A stretch of 64,000 bases of DNA from NCBI RefSeq assembly GCF_030418315.1, contig NZ_JAUHPV010000002.1:62001-126000 (forward strand). The letters run 5' to 3'. Numbering within the stretch: the stretch's first letter is position 1; each line of letters opens with the position of its first letter. Below are positions 3,625 through 62,097 of the stretch, piece after piece. The notes under the pieces are model-generated. The model ran no database searches, was not told the origin of the DNA, and worked only from the letters and a program-made list of their open reading frames with translations. Source of the DNA: Demequina zhanjiangensis. GTDB lineage: Bacteria; Actinomycetota; Actinomycetes; Actinomycetales; Demequinaceae. The translations under genes were made by a program, and so were the position numbers.

Positions 3625-6600
3625 TCAGCCTCGCAGCATCACGCTCGATCGGCGCATCCGGCCGAGCGTCAGCAGCATCAAGGAGCCGGCGAGCAGGAGC
3701 ATCAGCGCCATGCGGAGCAGCCCTGCTGCGTCCGCTCCCGTGTTGCCGAGCTCCTGACCCCCCGTGCCTCCGCCTCCGCCGGTGCCGAGCTCGTCACCGG
3801 AGGCGACAGGCACTTCGACCTGATCCGTGACAGACCCGGTCTGGTCCGAGTCCGCGGTGGCGGTGTTGAGGATCGACCCGGCCTCGGCGTCTGCGTCCGT
3901 GACCACGTAGGACCCCTCGAGCACACACGTCTCGCCAGGCGCGAGGAAGGCGCAGGTGACGGAGTCCGGGCTCAGCATCGGGTCGGACACGACCACGTTG
4001 GTGAGGTTCGCCTCGCCCGTGTTGGTGGCGGTCACCGTGTAGGTCAGCGTGTCGCCTGCCTCGATGTCGCCGGATCCATCGTCATCGGCGTTGACCGGCT
4101 CATCCTTCACGATCGCCAGCTCGGGCGCGGGGAGCGGGGTCACCACTGGCGGTGTGGTGGTCACCTCGGTCTGGTCCGATCCGCCCGTCCCGGTGTTGGC
4201 GACGCTGCCGGCCTCCACATCCCCGGCCGTGACGATGTAGGTGCCGGTGAGCTCGCAGGTCTCGCCTGGCGCGAGCAGCGGGCACGTGACCGAGTCCGGA
4301 TCCAGCAGCGGGTCCGAGACGACCACGTCGGTGAGGTTCGCCGTGCCCGTGTTCGTCGCGGTCACGGTGTAGGACAGGGTGTCTCCCGCGGAGATGTCTC
4401 CGGACTCGTCGGCGTCCTCGAGCAGGAGCGGCGCGCCCTTCTCCACCATGAGGCGCGGCAGGGGCACGGGCGAGACGACGATCGAGTCGACGCCGCCTGT
4501 CTGGTCGCCGTCTCCGGTGCCCGTGTTCGTGATCTCGCCCGCCGAGACGTCCTCGGCCGTCACCACGTAGGTGCCCTCCAGGACGCACGTGTCGCCGGGC
4601 TCCATGAACTCGCACGTGATCGAGTCGGGGTCGAGCATCGAGTCGGACACGACGACGTTCGTGAGGTTCGCCTCGCCCGTGTTCGTCGCCGTCACCGTGT
4701 AGGTGAGGGTGTCACCGACGGACACGTCGCCCGAGCCGTCCTCATCGGCATTCACAGGCCCCGTCTTCACGACCGTGAGATCGGGAGGGACGAGCGGGGT
4801 CACGACGGGAGGCGTCGTGATGGTCTCGGTCTGGTCGGAGCCACCCGATCCGGTGTTCGTGATGCTGCCGGTCTCCACGTCGTCGGCCGTGACGACGTAG
4901 GTGCCCTCCAGCACGCAGGTCTCGCCAGGTGCGAGAAGCGGGCACGTGACCGAGTCCGGCGTCAGCAGCGGGTCCGACACGACCACATCCGTCAGGTTCG
5001 CGGTTCCGTTGTTGGTGGCGGTGACCGTGTAGGTGAGGGTGTCGCCTTCCGAGATGTCCTCGGAACCGTCCGCGTCGTCGGTAAGGACGGGCTCGTCCTT
5101 CACGATCATGAGGTCCGGGACGGGCAGCGGGGTCACGACGATCGACTCGATCTCATCGGTCTGGTCCGAGCCGCCGGTGCCAGTGTTCTCGATGGTGCCG
5201 GTCTCCACGTCGTCGGCCGTGACGACGTAGGTGCCCTCCAGCACGCACGTCTCGCCAGGTGCGAGAAGCGGGCACGTGACCGAGTCCGGGCTCAGCAGCG
5301 GGTCCGACACCACCACGTTCGTGAGGTTCGCCTCGCCCGTGTTCGTCGCCGTCACCGTGTACGTCAACGTGTCCCCGACCGAGAGGTCTCCCGACCCGTC
5401 CTCGTCAGCGTTCACCGGATCCGACTTCACGACCTCCAGCTCGGGCGACGGCACGGGCGTGACCACGGGCGGAGTCGTGATGGTCTCCGTCTGGTCGGTC
5501 GAGCCGGTCGCCGTGTTCTCGATCTCGCCTGCGGCGACGTCCTCCGCCGTCACCGTGTACGTGCCCTCGAGCACGCACGTCTCGCCAGGGGCGAGCAGGG
5601 GGCATGTCTGCGATCCGGGAGTGAGCATCGCATCGATCACGACCACGTCCGTCAGGTTCGCCGTGCCCGTGTTCGTCGCCGTGACCGTGTAGGTGAGCGT
5701 GTCACCCTCGGAGACGTCGCCGGAGCCGTCCTCATCCGCGTTGACCGGGCCTGTCTTCACGACCTCCAGCTCGGGCGACGGCACGGGCGTGACCACGGGC
5801 GGAGTCGTGATGGTCTCCGTCTGGTCGGTCGAGCCGGTCGCCGTGTTCTCGATCTCGCCTGCGGCGACATCCTCCGCCGTCACCGTGTACGTGCCCTCCA
5901 GCACGCACGTCTCGCCCGGCGCGACGAGCGGGCAGGTCTCGGACCCCGGCGTCAGCATCGTGTCGATCACGACGACGTCCGTCAGGTTCGCCGTGCCGGT
6001 GTTGGTGGCCGTCACCGTGTACGTCAACGTGTCGCCCTCGGAGATGTCCCCCGAACCGTCGGCGTCGACGGTGAGCACCGGCACGTCCTTGACGAGCGCG
6101 AGATCGGGGAAGGGCAGCGGGGTCACGACGATCGACTCGATCTCATCGGTCTGGTCCGAGCCGCCCGTCGCGGTGTTGTCGATCTCCCCTGTGGCCACAT
6201 CGTCCGCGGTCACGGTGTAGGTGCCTTGGAGGACGCACGTCTCGCCCGGTGCGACGAGCGCGCAGGTGACCGAGCCCGGCGTCAGCATCGGGTCGGACAC
6301 CACCACGTCCGTCAAGCTCGCCGTGCCGGTGTTGGTGGCCGTCACCGTGTACGTCAACGTGTCACCCACGGAGATGTCACCGGAACCGTCCTCGTCCGCG
6401 TTCACGGGCCCCGTCTTGACGACCTCGAGGCGCGGGGCGGGCACGGGCGTGACGACGATCGACTCGACCTCGTCGGTCTGGTCGGAACCACCGGTGCCGG
6501 TGTTCCTGATCTCGCCCGCGGCCACATCATCGGCCGTCACCACATACGTACCCTCGAGCACACATGTCTCTCCAGGCGCCAGCGTCGGGCAGGTGATCGA

Positions 6601-9600
6601 GTCCGGGGTCAGCAGCGGATCGCTCACGACCACGTTCGTGAGGTTCGCCTCGCCCGTGTTCGTGGCCGTCACCGTGTACGTGAGCGTGTCACCCTCGGAG
6701 ACGTCGCCCGACCCGTCCTCGTCCGTGTTCACGGGCCCCGTCTTGACGACCTCGAGCCCGGGCTCAGGCACGGGCGTGACGACCGGGGGCGTGGTGATGA
6801 CACCCACCTGGTCGCCGTCACCGGTGCCGGTGTTCCTGATCTCGCCCGCGGCCACATCATCGGCCGTCACCACATACGTGCCTTCCAGCACGCATTGCTC
6901 CCCAGGCGCCAGCGTCGGGCACGTGATCGAGTCCGGGGTCAGCAGCGGATCGCTCACGACCACGTTCGTCACGGTGGCCGTGCCCGTGTTCGTGACGGTG
7001 ACCGTGTAGGTGAGGGTGTCGCCCTCGGAGATGTCACCCGACCCGTCCTCATCGGCGTTGGCCGGGGGATCCTTCACGATCGACAGCTCCGGGTACGGCA
7101 CAGGCGTCACAACGATCGACTCGATCTCGTCGGTCTGATCCGACCCCCCGAAGGCGGTGTTGTCGATCTCGCCCGCGGCCACGTCGGCCGCGGTGACCAC
7201 GTACGTCCCCTCGAGCACACAGGTCTCTCCAGGCGCCAGCGTCGGGCACGTGATCGAGTCCGGGGTCAGGAGCGGATCGCTCACGACCACGTTCGTGAGG
7301 TTCGCCTCGCCCGTGTTCGTCGCGGTGACGGTGTACGTCAACGTGTCACCGACGGAGATGTCACCCGAGCCGTCCTCATCCGCGTTCACCGGATCCGACT
7401 TCACGACCTCCAGCTGAGGCGACGGGAGCGGCGTGACCACCGGCGGAGTCGTGATGGTCTCCGTCTGGTCGCCGCCTCCAGCGCCGGTGTTCGTGATGCT
7501 GCCCGCCATCACGTCGTCCCCGGTCACCACGTAGCTGCCCTCGAGCACACAGGTCTCTCCGGGCGCGAGCGTCGGACACGTGATCTCGCTCGGCGTCAGC
7601 AGCGGGTCGGTCACCGTCACATTCGTCAGGTTCGCGGTCCCCGTGTTCGTCGCCGTCACCGTGTACGTCAACGTGTCACCGACTGAGATGTCGCCCGAAC
7701 CGTCCGCGTCCGCGCTCAGCACCGGCTCGTCCTTGACGATCTCCAGCCGAGGTCGAGGAACCGGCGTGACGACGATGTCTCGAGTCGACCCGGTCTGATC
7801 GGAATCGGCGACGCCCGAGTTGAGGACGAACCCGAGATCGACCGCCGTCTGAGTCACCACGTAGCTGCCCTCGAGCACACAGGTCTCTCCGGGCGCGAGC
7901 GTCGGACACGTGATCTCGCTCGGCGTCAGCAGCGGGTCGGTCACCGTCACATTCGTCAGGTTCGCGGTCCCCGTGTTCGTCGCCGTCACCGTGTACGTGA
8001 GGGTGTCGCCCACGGAGATGTCACCCGAGCCGTCCGCATCCTCGGTCAACGCCGGGGCGTCCTTCTGGACGGCGAGGTCAGGGAGCGGGACGGGCGTCAC
8101 GACGATCGAGTCGATCTGATCGGTCTGGTCCGAGTCGCCCGATCCCGTGTTGGTGATGCTTCCCGCGGCCACATCGTCGGCGGTCACCACGTACGTGCCC
8201 TCGAGCACGCATGTTCCACCCGGCACGACCGGATCACATGTGATCGAGGCGGGCGTCAGCATCGGGTCGCTCACGACCACGTTCGTGAGGTTCGATCCTC
8301 CCGTGTTGGTGACGGTGACCGTGTACGTGAGCGTATCGCCCTCGGAGACATCGCCCGACCCGTCCTCGTCCGCGTTCGTCGGCCCGGTCTTGACCACCTC
8401 CATGTCCGGAGTGCCGACGGGGGTGACGATCGGAGGCGTGGTGATGGTCTCCGTCTGGTCGCCGCCGCCTTCGGCCGTGTTGGTGATGCTGCCGGAAGCG
8501 ACGTCGGCGGCAGTGACGACGTACGTGCCTTCCAGCACGCACTCCTCGCCTGGCGCCAGCGTCGGGCAGGTGATCGAGTCGGGAGTCAGCAGCGGGTCGC
8601 TGACCGTCACATTCGTCAGGTTCGCGGTGCCCGTGTTCGTCGCCGTCACCGTGTACGTCAACGTGTCGCCCTCGGAGATGTCACCCGAGCCGTCGGCGTC
8701 GTCGGTGAGCTCGGGGACGTCCTTGACAACGATCAGCCGTGGGGTCGGGACCGGCGTGACGACGATCGACTCGATCTCGTCTGTCTGGTCGGAATCGCCG
8801 GTCGCCGTGTTCTCGATCTCGCCCGCCGCCACGTCGTCCGCGGTGACCACGTACGTGCCCTCGAGCGCACAGGTCTCTCCAGGCGCGAGCAGGGGGCACG
8901 TGATCGTGTCGGGAGTCAGGAGCGGGTCCGAGACGACGACGTCCGTCAAGGTCGAGGTGCCGGTGTTCGTCGCCGTCACCGTGTACGTCAACGTGTCGCC
9001 CTCGGAGATGTCACCCGACCCGTCCTCATCGGCATTGACCGGGTCGGACTTCACCACAGACATCCCCGGGATCGGCACCGGTGTGACGACGATCGACTCG
9101 ATCTCGTCGGTCTGGTCGGAGTCGCCGACGCCGGTGTTCCTGATCTCGCCCGCGGCCACATCGTCGGCCGTCACCACATATGTGCCTTCCAGCACGCACT
9201 CCTCACCTGGCGCCAGCGTCGGGCAGGTGATCGAGTCAGGCGTCAGCAGCGAGTCGGTCACCGTCACATTGGTCAGATTCGCCGTACCCGTGTTCGTCGC
9301 CGTCACCGTGTACGTCAACGTGTCACCCACGGAGACATCGCCGGAACCGTCCTCATCGGCGTTCACCGGCTCCGTCTTCACCACCTCAAGCTCGGGGCGC
9401 GGCAGCGGGGTGACGATCAGGTCGCGGGTGGACCCTGTCTGGTCGGAGTCGGCGGTTCCCAGGTTGATGAGGAAGCCGAGAGCGACAGCGGCCTCGGTCA
9501 CCACGTAGGAGCCTTCCAGCACGCACTCGTCACCCGGGGCGAGCGTCGGGCAGGTGATCGAGTCGGGGGTCAGCGACGAGTCGGTGACGACCACGTTCGT

Positions 9601-12600
9601 CAGGTTCGCGCTGCCGGTGTTGGTGGCAGTCACCGTGTACGAGAGAGTGTCGCCGACCGAGATGTCACCCGAGCCGTCAGCGTCGACGACGAGCGTGGGC
9701 GCGGTCTTCTCGACGTCGAGCCGCGGAGTGGGAACCGGGGTGACGACGATCGACTCGATCTCGTCGGTCTGGTCGGAGCCGCCGACGCCGGTGTTCCTGA
9801 TCTCGCCCGCGGCCACATCGTCGGCCGTCACCACATATGTGCCTTCCAGCACGCACTCCTCACCTGGCGCGAGCGTCGGGCAGGTGATCGAGTCAGGCGT
9901 GAGCAGCGGGTCGGTCACCGTCGCATTGGTCAGATTCGCCGTGCCCGTGTTCGTCGCCGTCACCGTGTACGTCAACGTGTCGCCCACGGAGACATCGCCG
10001 GAACCGTCCTCATCGGCGTTCACCGGCCCCGTCTTCACCACCTCAAGCTCGGGGCGCGGCACAGGGGTGACGACGGGCGGTGTCGTGATGGTCCCCGTCT
10101 GGTCGCCGCCGCCCTCCGCAGTATTGGTGATGCTGCCTGCGGCCACGTCATCGGCCATCACCACGTAGGTGCCCTCGAGCACACAGGTCTCTCCAGGCGC
10201 GAGCAATGGACACGTGATCGAGTCGGGCGTCAGCAGCGGATCGCTCACCGTCACATCCGTCAGGTTCGCCGTGCCCGTGTTCGTCGCCGTCACCGTGTAC
10301 GTGAGGGTGTCGCCCTCAGAGATGTCGCCCGAGCCGTCCGCATCCTCCGTGAGCACAGGCTCGTCCTTCGCGAGCTCAAGAGCGGGGCGCGGCAGCGGCG
10401 TGACGATCACGTCGCGCGTGGATCCGGTCTGGTCCGAGTCGGCCACAGCGCTGTTGAGGATGAATCCGAGAAGTCCCGCCGCCTCAGTCACCACGTATGT
10501 GCCCTCCAGCACGCACTCCTCACCGGGCGCGAGCGTCGGGCAGGTGACCTCGCTCGGCGTCAGCAGCGGGTCGGTCACCGTCACATCCGTCAGGTTCGCC
10601 GTACCCGTGTTCGTCGCCGTCACCGTGTACGTCAACGTGTCACCGACGGAGATGTCACCCGAGCCATCCGCGTCCTCCGTGAGCACCGGGGGCTCCTTGT
10701 CCACCGTCAGACGCGGGGTCGGGAGAGGTGTCACGACGGGCGGCGTGGTGACGGTCTCCGTCTCGCCCGAGTCGCCCGTGGCGGAGTTCTCGATCTCGCC
10801 CGCCGCCACATCCTCGGCCGTGACCAGGTAGGTGCCCTCGAGCACGCAGGTCTCCCCCGGCTCGAGGACAGGACACGTCGCCGAACCGGGTACGAGCATG
10901 GTGTCGATCACCACCACGTCCGTGAGGGTGGCGTTGCCGGTGTTCGTCGCCGTGATCGTGTAGGTCAGCGTGTCGCCCTCGGAGATGTCACCGGAACCGT
11001 CCGCGTCGTCCGTCAGCACGGGCACGTCCTTCACGAGCGAGAGATCGGGCACGGTCACCTCGACCGTCACCTCCGCCGTCGGCGGCTCGCGCGGGATCAG
11101 GTTGCCGTCGGGGTCGCTGCCCGTCACCGACGCCACGTTCGTCGTGGTCTCGGTGATCACCGCAGTGCACTCGTACGTCCAGGTCTCGCCGATGCTCAGC
11201 CGGCCGTCACCTTCGATGTCGCCCGACACGTAGTCCACCGGGGAGCACATGTCATCCGTCACGACGGGGTCGATGATCTCGTTGTCCAGCTCGCAGACCA
11301 CGTCACCTTCGTCGCACACGCTCACGTTCGTGATCGTGTACGTGTAGGTGACGGGAGTGCCCGCATCCACCAGCAGCTCCGACGCCTCCTTGGTGATGTC
11401 GAGAAGCGGATCGTGGACCCTCACGCGGTCGCTGTCCGTGCCCTCGGCGTTGCCGTCCGGCCCCGTGGCGTCGACCGTGACGGTGTTGGTCGTCGTCTCG
11501 TCGAGCGTGGTCGTGCAGGTGTACTCCCAGGCCTCGCCCGGCTCGAGCACGCCAAGCTCACCCCCGTCACCCGATGGCCCCACCAAAGGCGAGCACGTGT
11601 CATCCACGACGTCCACCGTCGTGAAGTCCGCGTCACCATCGTTGAACACCACGATCGTGTAGGTGACCGACTCACCGGGGAAGACCAGCTCCTGGTCCGC
11701 CGTCTTGCTCACGTCGAGGCTCGGCGCGATCACGTCCACGACCGCGATGTCCCAGTCGAGCCACGGCCTCCCCAGGGAGTCGCGGCCACCCACGACCACC
11801 TCGTTCGTCACGTCGTCCTCAACCACCGTGGTGCACGTGTAGGTCCACGTCTCGCCCGGATCCAGCAGCCCGTCGCCGTTCGTGTCACCGGGGTTGGGCT
11901 CTCCAGAGGCGGGCACCAGAGGCGAGCACTTGTTGTCGATGATCGTCACGTCGCTCAGCGGGTCGTTGCCGGGGTTCGTCACCTCGAACGAGTACGTGAC
12001 CTCGTCTCCGGGACTGACGACCGTCGGGTCAGCGGTCTTGTCCACCGCGATCGCCGGGTCGATGACGTCCACCGTCGCCTCGGCGTCGTCCGTCACGAGG
12101 TTGCCGAGCCGGTCCGTTCCCGAAGCCTCCGCGATGTTCGTCGTCGTCTCATCAAGCGTCGTCGTGCAGGTGAAGATCCAGGTCTCCCCGTCGTCGAGCA
12201 CGCTGTCACCGTTGGTGTCACCGGCCGTCGGCCCCTCCACCGGAGCACACCTGTCGTCGGTCACCGAGACCGCGTTCAGCGACTCGACGGTGCCCTCGGC
12301 GAGCGTCACCTCGTAGGTGTAGGTGACGGCGCCTCCGGGCCTCACGATCAGCGGGTCGGCGGTCTTCTCGATCGCGATCCCGGAGTCGATGACCTCGACC
12401 GTCGCCTCGTCCTCGTCAGTGACGGCCTCGTCCTCGCCGGAGCCTGGCGTGACCGGATCACCCGTCGCCGTCGCGGTGTTGGTGAACGTCTCGTCGACCG
12501 TCACGGTGCACGTGTAGATCCACGTCTCGTCGAGGTCCAGGACGCCGTCGCCGTTGGCATCCCCGGAGTCGAGCGTGGGGACGCACTCCGGCACGTCGGG

Positions 12601-29232: not shown

Positions 29233-29234
29233 GG

Positions 29235-29334
29235 CGACAGTCCGAACCAACCTCACGCTCGACACCCCGACGCCACGCCGCTCAGGTGCGCGACACGCTG
29301 GCGTGTCGCGCCCCGGATTGGTTCGCACTGTCGG
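29235..29334 (+). repeat. Palindromic intergenic element, copy A
   Basis: About 100 bp. The terminal inverted repeats are CGACAGTCCGAACCAA at the left and the complement of CCGACAGTGCGAACCAAT at the right. An internal perfect 11-bp hairpin GCGCGACACGC / GCGTGTCGCGC sits at 29288-29311, and a CGACACCCCG box lies on the other side. It shares this layout with the copies near 44.8, 56.9, 58.0 and 62.0 kb. Confidence 0.85.
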
Positions 29335-44830: not shown

Positions 44831-44929
44831 CCGACAGTACGAACCACTCTGAGCCGCGACACCCCGTGAGGCCGGGCTCGGAGCGCGGAATCGGCGGCGT
44901 GTCGGACTGAGAGTGGTTCAGACTGTCGG
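44831..44929 (+). repeat. Palindromic intergenic element, copy B
   Basis: Terminal inverted repeats CCGACAGTACGAACCACTCT and its complement (18 of 20 positions pair). The inner GCGACACCCCG box is present, but the inner hairpin is decayed to its GGCGTGTCGG half. Confidence 0.85.
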
Positions 44930-54777: not shown

Positions 54778-56781
<2,004 letters not shown>

Positions 56782-56910: not shown

Positions 56911-57011
56911 CCGGACACTTTGCACCAATCTCAGCCGCAACACCCCGGTCGGTCGCGCCAACCGAACCGCGACACGCGCGCAGCGGCGTCCAGATTGGTT
57001 CGCACTGTCGG
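56911..57011 (+). repeat. Palindromic intergenic element, copy C
   Basis: Ends CCGGACACTTTGCACCAATCT and the complement of CTCCGACAGTGCGAACCAAT. An AACACCCCG box is on the left and a decayed GCGACACGC hairpin arm on the right. The last 26 codons and the stop of the DUF559 gene lie inside it. Confidence 0.85.
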
Positions 57012-57842
57012 AGTGAGCCAGCCCCTTCGCCACATCACGCCGATCACATCGTCGACGACCCCGGAAGCGGCCTGCAGGACATCCGCGCTCGTGTACCGCA
57101 GCACCGCGTAGCCGCTCAGCTCGAGCGCTCGATCGCGCTTGCGGTCGCGCGCGAACTGCTCGCGGTCGTGATGGAAGGCGTACCCATCCGTCTCCACGAC
57201 GACGCGCCCCTCGACAAGCAGATCGACCCTGCCCACGCCGGGAAGGAGCACCTGGGGCGTCACCGAGAACCCTGCCTCCCGCAGAGCCACCCGTGCGACG
57301 GTCTCAAGCGGCGACTGCGCACGTCCGTCGATGGCTCCGATGACGCGGGAGCGCCTTTGTTCGGTCCCGCGGGTGAGGAGCAGGGACTCTTCCGACCGCA
57401 CCAAGCCGCGGTTGATCGCCGCATCCCACAGCGCGACTTGCTCAAGCGGAGTCGTGCACAGGCCGACGATGTCGAGGTGCTGCCTCGCGAGCGCCCCGCG
57501 TGTCGGCAGGTGCCGGTGGATCACCACCTCGTCGACGGGACGGCTGCGCGGGTCACCGAGTGCTCGAGGCTGCGGGACCCCAAGATGGATGCGCTCATCC
57601 TCCGTGAGCAGTGGCAGACCATGTGACGCGCACCAGGTGAGGCACGTCGGCGTAGCCCGGAACACCGAGGCGAGAACCCGTTCGCGGTCGGTGCCCGGTA
57701 GCGAATAGCAGCCGCGATGCGGCCTGACGAGCTCTCCGCGATGCACAGCAGCCAGGAGAGCCTCTCGGCTGACGCCGACGCGCTGAAGCTCTGCCCAACG
57801 CGCGACACCGCCTCGTTGCTCGACCGCCCTCAGAGGTTCCAT
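56931..57842 (-). CDS. AbiEi-like HTH plus DUF559 endonuclease-fold protein
   Basis: 303 residues. An N-terminal winged helix like that of AbiEi antitoxins (VEQRGGVARWAELQRVGVSREALLAAVHRGELVRPHRGCYSL) is followed by a middle region and a Vsr-like DUF559 nuclease fold. The latter shows SPLETVARVALREAGF, VDLLVEGRVVVETDGYAFH and the final RDRALELSGYAVLRY, in which E, D and ETD form a PD-(D/E)XK-type site. The last 26 residues (from about TVRTN) are encoded by palindromic element copy C, so the natural C-terminus may have been replaced. It lies between hpt and ftsH, with element copies C and D on both sides. The ATG at 57842 fits the family start. No AbiEii toxin partner is adjacent. Confidence 0.8.
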   Translation of the reverse strand: MEPLRAVEQRGGVARWAELQRVGVSREALLAAVHRGELVRPHRGCYSLPGTDRERVLASVFRATPTCLTWCASHGLPLLTEDERIHLGVPQPRALGDPRSRPVDEVVIHRHLPTRGALARQHLDIVGLCTTPLEQVALWDAAINRGLVRSEESLLLTRGTEQRRSRVIGAIDGRAQSPLETVARVALREAGFSVTPQVLLPGVGRVDLLVEGRVVVETDGYAFHHDREQFARDRKRDRALELSGYAVLRYTSADVLQAASGVVDDVIGVMWRRGWLTPTVRTNLDAAARVSRFGWRDRPGCCG

Positions 57843-58003
57843 GGTTCGACGGTCGCGGAGTCGAGCTCTCGCACGGAGTCGTTGCGCACCGGCTGGGGGC
57901 TTCGCGAGCGACACCACGGACTGTGGACGCCGATGAGCGGGCTGTGGACGCCGAGGATTCGGACGCGTCACGCGCGTCGACGCGTCGGATCACCCCACCT
58001 CGC

Positions 58004-58103
58004 CCGCACTGCGAACCAAAGCCAACGGCGACACCCCGTCGACACGCCGACGCAGGGCGCGACACGCTCGCGTGTCGCGGCGAGATTGGTTCAAACTGTC
58101 GGG
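58004..58103 (+). repeat. Palindromic intergenic element, copy D
   Basis: The right end is the complement of CCCGACAGTTTGAACCAAT. The left end CCGCACTGCGAACCAA is slightly decayed. A GCGACACCCCG box and an inner hairpin CGCGACACGC / GCGTGTCGCG (58058-58079) match copy A. It lies between the 3' end of hpt and the start of the DUF559 gene. Confidence 0.85.
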
Positions 58104-58142: not shown

Positions 58143-58697
58143 TCAGCCCCCGTAGACCTCCGGGTTGAGGATCGCGACGAACGGCAGCGTCCTGTACTTC
58201 TCCGCGAAGTCGAGGCCGTAGCCGACCACGAACTCGTTGGGGATGTCGAAGCCCAGGTACTTGATCGGCACCTCGACCTTGACGGCGTCGGGCTTGCGCA
58301 GCAGCGCGGCGATCTCGACGGACTCGGCGCCGCGGGACTGCAGGTTGCCGAGCAGCCACGACAGGGTGAGGCCGGAGTCGATGATGTCCTCGACGATGAG
58401 GACGTGCTTGCCGGTGAGGTCGGCGTCGAGGTCCTTGAGGATGCGGACGACGCCGGAGGACTTGGTGCCGGAGCCGTAGGAGGAGATCGCCATCCAGTCC
58501 ATCTGCACGGTGGGCGGCATGCGGCGCGCGAGGTCGGCCATCACCATGACGGCGCCCTTGAGCACTCCGACGAGGAGGAGGTCCTTGCCCGCATAGTCGG
58601 CGCGGATCTGCGCGGACATGACGTCGAGCTTCCGGCCGATGTCGTTCTCGCTCACGATGATCTTCGTGAAGTCGTTCATGTCGAACGTCTGGTCCAC
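58143..58697 (-). CDS. hpt: Hypoxanthine phosphoribosyltransferase
   Basis: 184 residues. Salvages hypoxanthine and guanine to IMP and GMP. The PRPP-binding motif is VLIVEDIIDSGLTL. Further signatures are LLVGVLKGAVMVMADL, ISSYGSGTKSSG and DIPNEFVVGYGLDFAEKYR. The GTG at 58697 is chosen because AGGAG lies 6 nt upstream. ATG six codons further in is possible. It follows tilS by 119 bp; in relatives hpt usually leads straight into ftsH. Confidence 0.97.
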   Translation of the reverse strand: MDQTFDMNDFTKIIVSENDIGRKLDVMSAQIRADYAGKDLLLVGVLKGAVMVMADLARRMPPTVQMDWMAISSYGSGTKSSGVVRILKDLDADLTGKHVLIVEDIIDSGLTLSWLLGNLQSRGAESVEIAALLRKPDAVKVEVPIKYLGFDIPNEFVVGYGLDFAEKYRTLPFVAILNPEVYGG

Positions 58698-61994: not shown

Positions 61995-62097
61995 TCCGAC
62001 ACTTTGAACCAATCCCGGGGGCGACACGCGAGCGTGTCGCCGGCCGGCTCGGCGTGTCGACCGGGTGTCGCGGGGCGGAATGGTGCGAACTGTCGGA
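61995..62097 (-). repeat. Palindromic intergenic element, copy E (inverted)
   Basis: Ends CTCCGACACTTTGAACCAAT and the complement of CTCCGACAGTTCGCACCATT. The inner hairpin GGCGACACGC / GCGTGTCGCC (62020-62041) is near the left end and the CGGGTGTCG box near the right, so this copy is reversed relative to A and D. Confidence 0.85.

Follow-up and report, generated by a model that had tools for sequence, protein, structure and literature searches.

The question raised by this locus is why a predicted nuclease gene stands between two copies of a palindromic element. The locus lies in a 64,000-nucleotide stretch of the Demequina zhanjiangensis genome (the window, taken at its full length), where the gene sits between hpt and ftsH and between palindromes C and D, and tens more copies of the element are scattered in intergenic DNA (Table 1). 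We put the probability at roughly 0.6 that the gene encodes an AbiEi–EDxHD nuclease devoted to palindromes of its own type, a counterpart of RAYT/REPIN built on a non-homologous enzyme. Conserved bracketing of the gene, dispersal of matching copies where tested, coupling between arm type and nuclease type, and replacement of types at one locus are the observations behind this reading.

Table 1. Features of the window discussed in the text (positions in the 64,000-nucleotide stretch)
Feature	Position	Strand	Description
Nuclease gene	56931..57842	minus	303 aa from ATG 57842, the likely start
ORF around nuclease gene	56931..57971	minus	Open from 57971
AbiEi-like DNA-binding half, predicted	57327..57842	minus	Residues 1–172; winged helix and second domain
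Vsr/EDxHD-type nuclease domain, predicted	57015..57320	minus	Residues 175–276
hpt	58143..58697	minus	Conserved left neighbour of nuclease gene
ftsH	54778..56781	minus	Conserved right neighbour of nuclease gene
Element A	29234..29334		Dispersed copy; flanking genes convergent
Element B	44831..44929		Dispersed copy; flanking genes convergent; G004 has it, G001 does not (intergenic region differs)
Element C	56912..57011		100 bp; gives last 26 codons and stop of nuclease gene; equivalents at same position in other Demequina
Element D	58003..58102		100 bp; between hpt and nuclease gene; equivalents in other Demequina
Element E	61996..62096		Dispersed copy, downstream of a terminator-like hairpin
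Tandem array	3803..11061		22 tandem copies of a unit of ~330 bp, 60–84% alike; probably a giant repeat-domain surface protein

Pfam places AbiEi_4, MTES_1575 and DUF559 domains in the gene, the first of which is present in 30 of 45 homologues. In an AlphaFold2 model of the protein (mean pLDDT 92.5), the N-terminal half matches the AbiEi antitoxin 6y8q (Z 8.1, 167 residues aligned, r.m.s.d. 4.1), and the C-terminal domain matches 3hrl (Z 12.3), I-Bth0305I (Z 11.9) and Vsr (Z 10.6). Glu180, Asp207, Asp219, His224 and Asp233 are invariant among the 45 homologues and are candidate catalytic residues. As modelled, the protein joins an AbiEi-like half, for DNA binding, to a Vsr/EDxHD nuclease. No AbiEii toxin gene lies beside it, the neighbours being hpt and ftsH. 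The predicted nuclease domain stops where element C begins, and the tail that element C supplies (RT..D.AARVS-like) is kept in the seven own-type species, as conservation of the arm sequence would predict. A sequence-only reading of the window had noticed both the bracketing palindromes and the contribution of copy C to the end of the protein; the coordinates of the ORF and the two elements bear out both, and the pattern proves stronger than could be seen from the window. Its label for the gene, DUF559, is correct as to the domain and too broad as a description, because two further DUF559 genes of this genome, from other subfamilies, are not bracketed; the idea that every DUF559 gene is bracketed was rejected for the same reason.

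The element of this genome has inverted arms of ~19 bp (CCGACASTnnGAACCAATC; own-type hereafter) and inner CGACAC boxes. Nine matches to its arm pattern fall in the window, where shuffles predict 0.02, and 46 genome-wide, 23 per strand, with no match in a reversed-pattern control. The 46 arms resolve into 28 paired elements of 99–101 bp (a model search gives 29 copies), and only one arm (C12:111168) falls outside any listed element. The arms found pair at ~80 bp and do not enclose a gene. Identity among the copies averages 71% and reaches 82% at most. Many sites are common to this genome and G001. Since the copies are old and so many sites shared, movement must be slow at best. No target-site duplication is visible beside the 28 copies, and neither an exact insertion boundary nor a target duplication was found at loci B and E or at two Cryobacterium sites; empty sites compared with occupied ones differ by whole intergenic regions.

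Covariation between the two arms does not rise above shuffles, variable positions changing independently on each side. The symmetry of the palindrome therefore resembles that of a protein site occurring twice in duplex DNA, and a reading of the element as an RNA or single-strand hairpin was rejected for want of covariation. The same orientation that the sequence-only reading gave to copies C and D proved not to be meaningful because the elements are near-symmetric, left and right flanks scoring 72 as direct and 70 as inverted copies. Relative orientation differs between species, both direct and inverted pairs occurring, and the fixed flank orientation of a composite transposon was rejected accordingly.

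Some features of the distribution are recorded here as side observations. Within 60 kb of the nuclease gene there are 5 own-type elements where 1.0 would be expected (p=0.003; G000:C11 around 119 kb), and in G001:C1 such elements avoid an arc of 1.16 Mb (p=0.007). This genome also holds a few CTTCACGC..CTGTGA arms (G000:C1:496377 (L334), G000:C12:110936 and G000:C1:283864), related to the type of G004 and possibly relics of a former nuclease.

The named relatives of the source genome are Demequina, and a model of the own-type element was run on 24 sister genomes. With both strands counted, at least 14 matches occur in most of these, few in G007, G010 and G017, and none at all in G005, G009, G019 and G021. 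Across 14 genomes of other families there is one weak match (E=1.3e-4). When both flanks of the gene were compared without assuming any arm sequence, by a four-arm palindrome score out of 96, 17 of the 18 Demequina genomes with intact hpt–nuclease–ftsH order (the source genome included) scored 72–93, against 56–63 for shuffles. The exception, G006, scores 64, near the null; its close relative G023, with the same arm sequence, scores 79. Junctions lacking own-type arms bear other arm types instead. An impression gained from own-type arms only, that most sisters have the gene without elements, was overturned by the model search together with the type-free comparison, and no sister genome of that kind, named in the sequence-only reading as the case that would speak against it, came to light at this locus. 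The C, D and E sites are common to this genome and G001, and the C and D sites also to G016. The gene is absent between hpt and ftsH in seven genomes of other families read at this locus (L077–L083). Separately, the left flank of L173 (G018), ~740 bp long, contains a direct duplication of ~300 bp that includes an element.

The flanks of different species bear distinct arms, for example of GAACCAATC, CTGCACGC..CTGTGA, GTTTGACACAA, CGGCTCCGCCACAC, GAACAGTTCTGACCG and CAACGGA types, with CGACAC boxes recurring within many of the differing elements. These types follow the nuclease. Arm similarity correlates with nuclease identity once FtsH identity is removed (partial Mantel r=0.47, p=0.0002), and no correlation with FtsH identity is left once nuclease identity is removed (p=0.67). 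The arms of G006 were set by hand and the arm register of G023 is uncertain, a fault that weakens rather than creates the correlation, since the arm score of these two is low although their nucleases are 90% identical. The nuclease tree is in conflict with FtsH. Thus G002, G011 and G020 have FtsH identities of 93–95% and nuclease identities of only 33–45%, and G002 and G017, at 87% FtsH and 66% nuclease identity, have near-identical arms.

The coupling can be assigned to one half of the protein. Over 27 loci, and given the nuclease half, arm similarity correlates with the middle part of the AbiEi-like half (r=0.34) and with its winged helix (r=0.19; both p=0.001); given the AbiEi-like half, its correlation with the nuclease half is not significant over the same loci (r=0.04–0.08). 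Since arm type follows the AbiEi-like half, that half is, judged from these sequence comparisons, the likely reader of the arms.

Where flank types were counted across genomes, they are dispersed only in the genome with the nuclease concerned. Two species-specific types were counted in this way. That of G010 makes five pairs in G010, two flanking the gene and three elsewhere, and none in the other genomes searched; that of G004 has 14 arms in G004 and scattered background matches in other genomes, with a related variant in this genome at C1:496377. The best dispersed locus is of the flank type in G008, G017, G018, G020 and G022, and the best locus of the own-type model differs in type from the flanks in G003, G006, G011 and G023; no dispersal of the current flank type was recorded in these four or in G002 and G021. 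Own-type elements persist in G015, G003 and G004 despite nucleases of other types.

Scars of replacement lie beside the gene itself. G004 is close to the source species, with 93% Hpt and 39% nuclease identity, and the right flank in G004 holds, in order, a full element of the new type, half an own-type element and half of a third type. In G003 an own-type arm is left beyond the new element pair. The E locus is own-type in this genome and G001, of the G004 type in G004 and of the CCGCACGGAT type in G012, and carries none in G016. Different types at the E locus, together with the scars beside the gene, imply a turnover of types at individual sites. The hpt–ftsH nuclease gene is a long-standing resident with exchanged versions, and not a recent local insertion. 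Two further juxtapositions were noted in G004: the equivalent of locus B (G004:C4:1398310-1398858) has two element types side by side in one intergenic region, and new-type copies at C4:1742490 and C6:441303 lie within ~50 bp of own-type copies.

Bracketing of the gene extends across Micrococcales, to many soil and marine relatives of Demequina. At 65 of 96 non-redundant loci with homologues, 39 of 53 outside Demequina, the four-arm score is at least 76, a value reached by none of 297 equally spaced control segment pairs from the same loci; the locus counts are not fully independent because the sets contain related genomes. Nine Cryobacterium genomes carry flank-type arms, dispersed and mostly in pairs; eight of them have 16–27 arms per strand and the ninth has fewer, and the reversed control gives none. 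In one cassette the gene and its two elements fit into 1.2 kb, with glpK on one side and a HAD phosphatase gene on the other. Paralogues at other loci likewise stand between two elements. Several single loci merit mention. In G042, G043 and G044, also Cryobacterium, the equivalent of L344:11760-11851 is a palindrome-like sequence with other arms, a situation that recalls the E locus of Demequina. The homologue at L302 (G026), outside Demequina, lies between palindromes that are almost perfect and differ little from each other, which suggests that they were copied very recently. At L301 (G029:C11:970865), from a different family within the order, the bracketed homologue adjoins hpt but lies on the opposite strand.

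The proposal of the sequence-only reading that the gene travels with the element, or is used by it, is strongly supported by the bracketing across the genus and Micrococcales, the coupling of types, the dispersal of flank types where counted and the half-element scars. Its opposite, elements distributed independently of DUF559 genes, holds in part: flank types track the nuclease, yet most dispersed copies lie far from any DUF559 gene and old types outlive their nuclease. We are probably looking at a two-part genetic system comprising a predicted sequence-specific nuclease and a cognate palindromic element of 70–120 bp. In such a system the AbiEi-like module would bind the arms as duplex DNA and the nuclease half would nick or cut at the element; repair or strand transfer after cutting would then copy elements into new sites. 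The same activity may let incoming element–nuclease–element cassettes displace the resident one.

The main rival reading makes the protein a sequence-specific regulator, the flanks its autoregulatory operators and the dispersed copies its regulon, the nuclease fold being rarely or never used. AbiEi antitoxins are autoregulators that bind inverted repeats (PMC7319586), and both the dependence of arm type on the AbiEi-like half and the behaviour of the arms as protein sites in duplex DNA suit a regulator as well. We nevertheless regard it as unlikely, given that element copies stand on both sides of the gene, that the candidate catalytic residues are invariant and that one intergenic site bears different types in different species. 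Moreover, of the 18 own copies that were classified, eight lie between convergent genes and none between divergent ones. Quite unlikely, in our view, is a homing-type system in which the element–nuclease–element cassette is the mobile unit and the dispersed copies are solo remnants of recombination between flanks, like solo LTRs. Close species do hold different nucleases with their own palindromes at the same locus, half-element scars are present, paralogues at other loci are bracketed too and the catalytic domain resembles that of a homing endonuclease. Flanks are found both direct and inverted, however, and recombination between inverted copies would leave the gene in place; tens of solo copies against few gene copies per genome also sit badly with such an origin.

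Two other accounts were weighed. An unrelated transposase might move the palindromes, which would merely accumulate beside a host defence gene; AbiEi-like domains do occur in phage-defence proteins, PADLOC gives weak matches to AbiEi, and own copies are enriched near the gene. This is very unlikely, as it leaves both the matching of flank and nuclease types and the bracketing across genera unexplained, the other two DUF559 genes lack flanking elements and a Y1/RAYT transposase was not found in 25 genomes. Nor was any autonomous element with the same arms found in this analysis. The least probable account, already disfavoured by the partial Mantel result, treats the coupling as an artefact of shared ancestry between elements and gene, old neighbours that diverged together. 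The sites shared with G001 and G016 are compatible with it; arm type shows no residual dependence on FtsH distance, the nuclease and FtsH trees conflict, and close species bear unrelated types plus scars of the old one.

Returning to a nuclease dedicated to its own palindromes, we give even odds to the wider proposal of an independently evolved mobile class across Micrococcales, in which the AbiEi–EDxHD nuclease would cut species-specific palindromes, multiply them, swap cassettes at fixed loci and be reprogrammed via its AbiEi-like half. The joint change of enzyme and palindrome between species points to a pairing of nuclease and selfish repeat, of which no description was found in the literature searched, a partial set without most subscription journals. 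The very common actinobacterial AbiEi-domain DUF559/MTES_1575 proteins of 'function unknown' would thereby gain a specific and testable partner, the palindromes flanking their gene. The bracketed loci also provide dozens of naturally paired nucleases and candidate target sequences, the material needed to learn how DNA is recognised by this fold and by what route the repeats spread.

The system overlaps with several that are known. Like MITEs and other short bacterial palindromic repeats, the elements are short, non-coding and intergenic with terminal inverted arms, but no target-site duplication was seen, nor a transposase bearing these arms, and the flanked gene belongs to another nuclease class. 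The match of residues 1–172 to a whole AbiEi recalls the AbiE type IV toxin–antitoxin system, whose antitoxin binds inverted repeats (PMC7319586); here, in contrast, the AbiEi-like half is fused to a nuclease, an AbiEii nucleotidyltransferase toxin gene is not adjacent and the palindromes are dispersed in the genome. With the EDxHD/Vsr-like homing endonuclease I-Bth0305I the protein shares its predicted fold, invariant acidic and His residues and a separate DNA-binding part, and fold match and invariance together indicate the conserved E, D, H, D catalytic domain. Replacement of nuclease and palindrome type is seen at one locus. The DNA-binding part is AbiEi-like, however, no intron or intein houses the gene, and the palindrome multiplies more than the gene.

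The closest parallel is REPIN/RAYT, in which an enzyme gene has cognate palindromes beside it, inverted doublets are dispersed in intergenic DNA and palindrome type is linked to enzyme type (PMC3116915, PMC8049555). Cognate palindromes adjoin the nuclease gene here too, and dispersed inverted doublets are of the same type. Membership fails on enzyme class, inheritance and hairpin. The RAYT is a Y1 HUH tyrosine transposase and the present enzyme an AbiEi–EDxHD nuclease fusion (AbiEi_4 plus MTES_1575); PF01797 (Y1/RAYT) has no match in the 25 genomes, with controls positive in 5 of 14, and a RAYT was rejected as the mover of the elements. RAYTs are single-copy and vertically inherited (PMC8049555), whereas nuclease versions are swapped between close species, their tree being incongruent with FtsH, and the arms lack the compensatory changes of a single-strand hairpin. 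What is common to both is the arrangement, which suggests more than one origin for the partnership known from REPIN/RAYT, here with an enzyme unrelated by homology.
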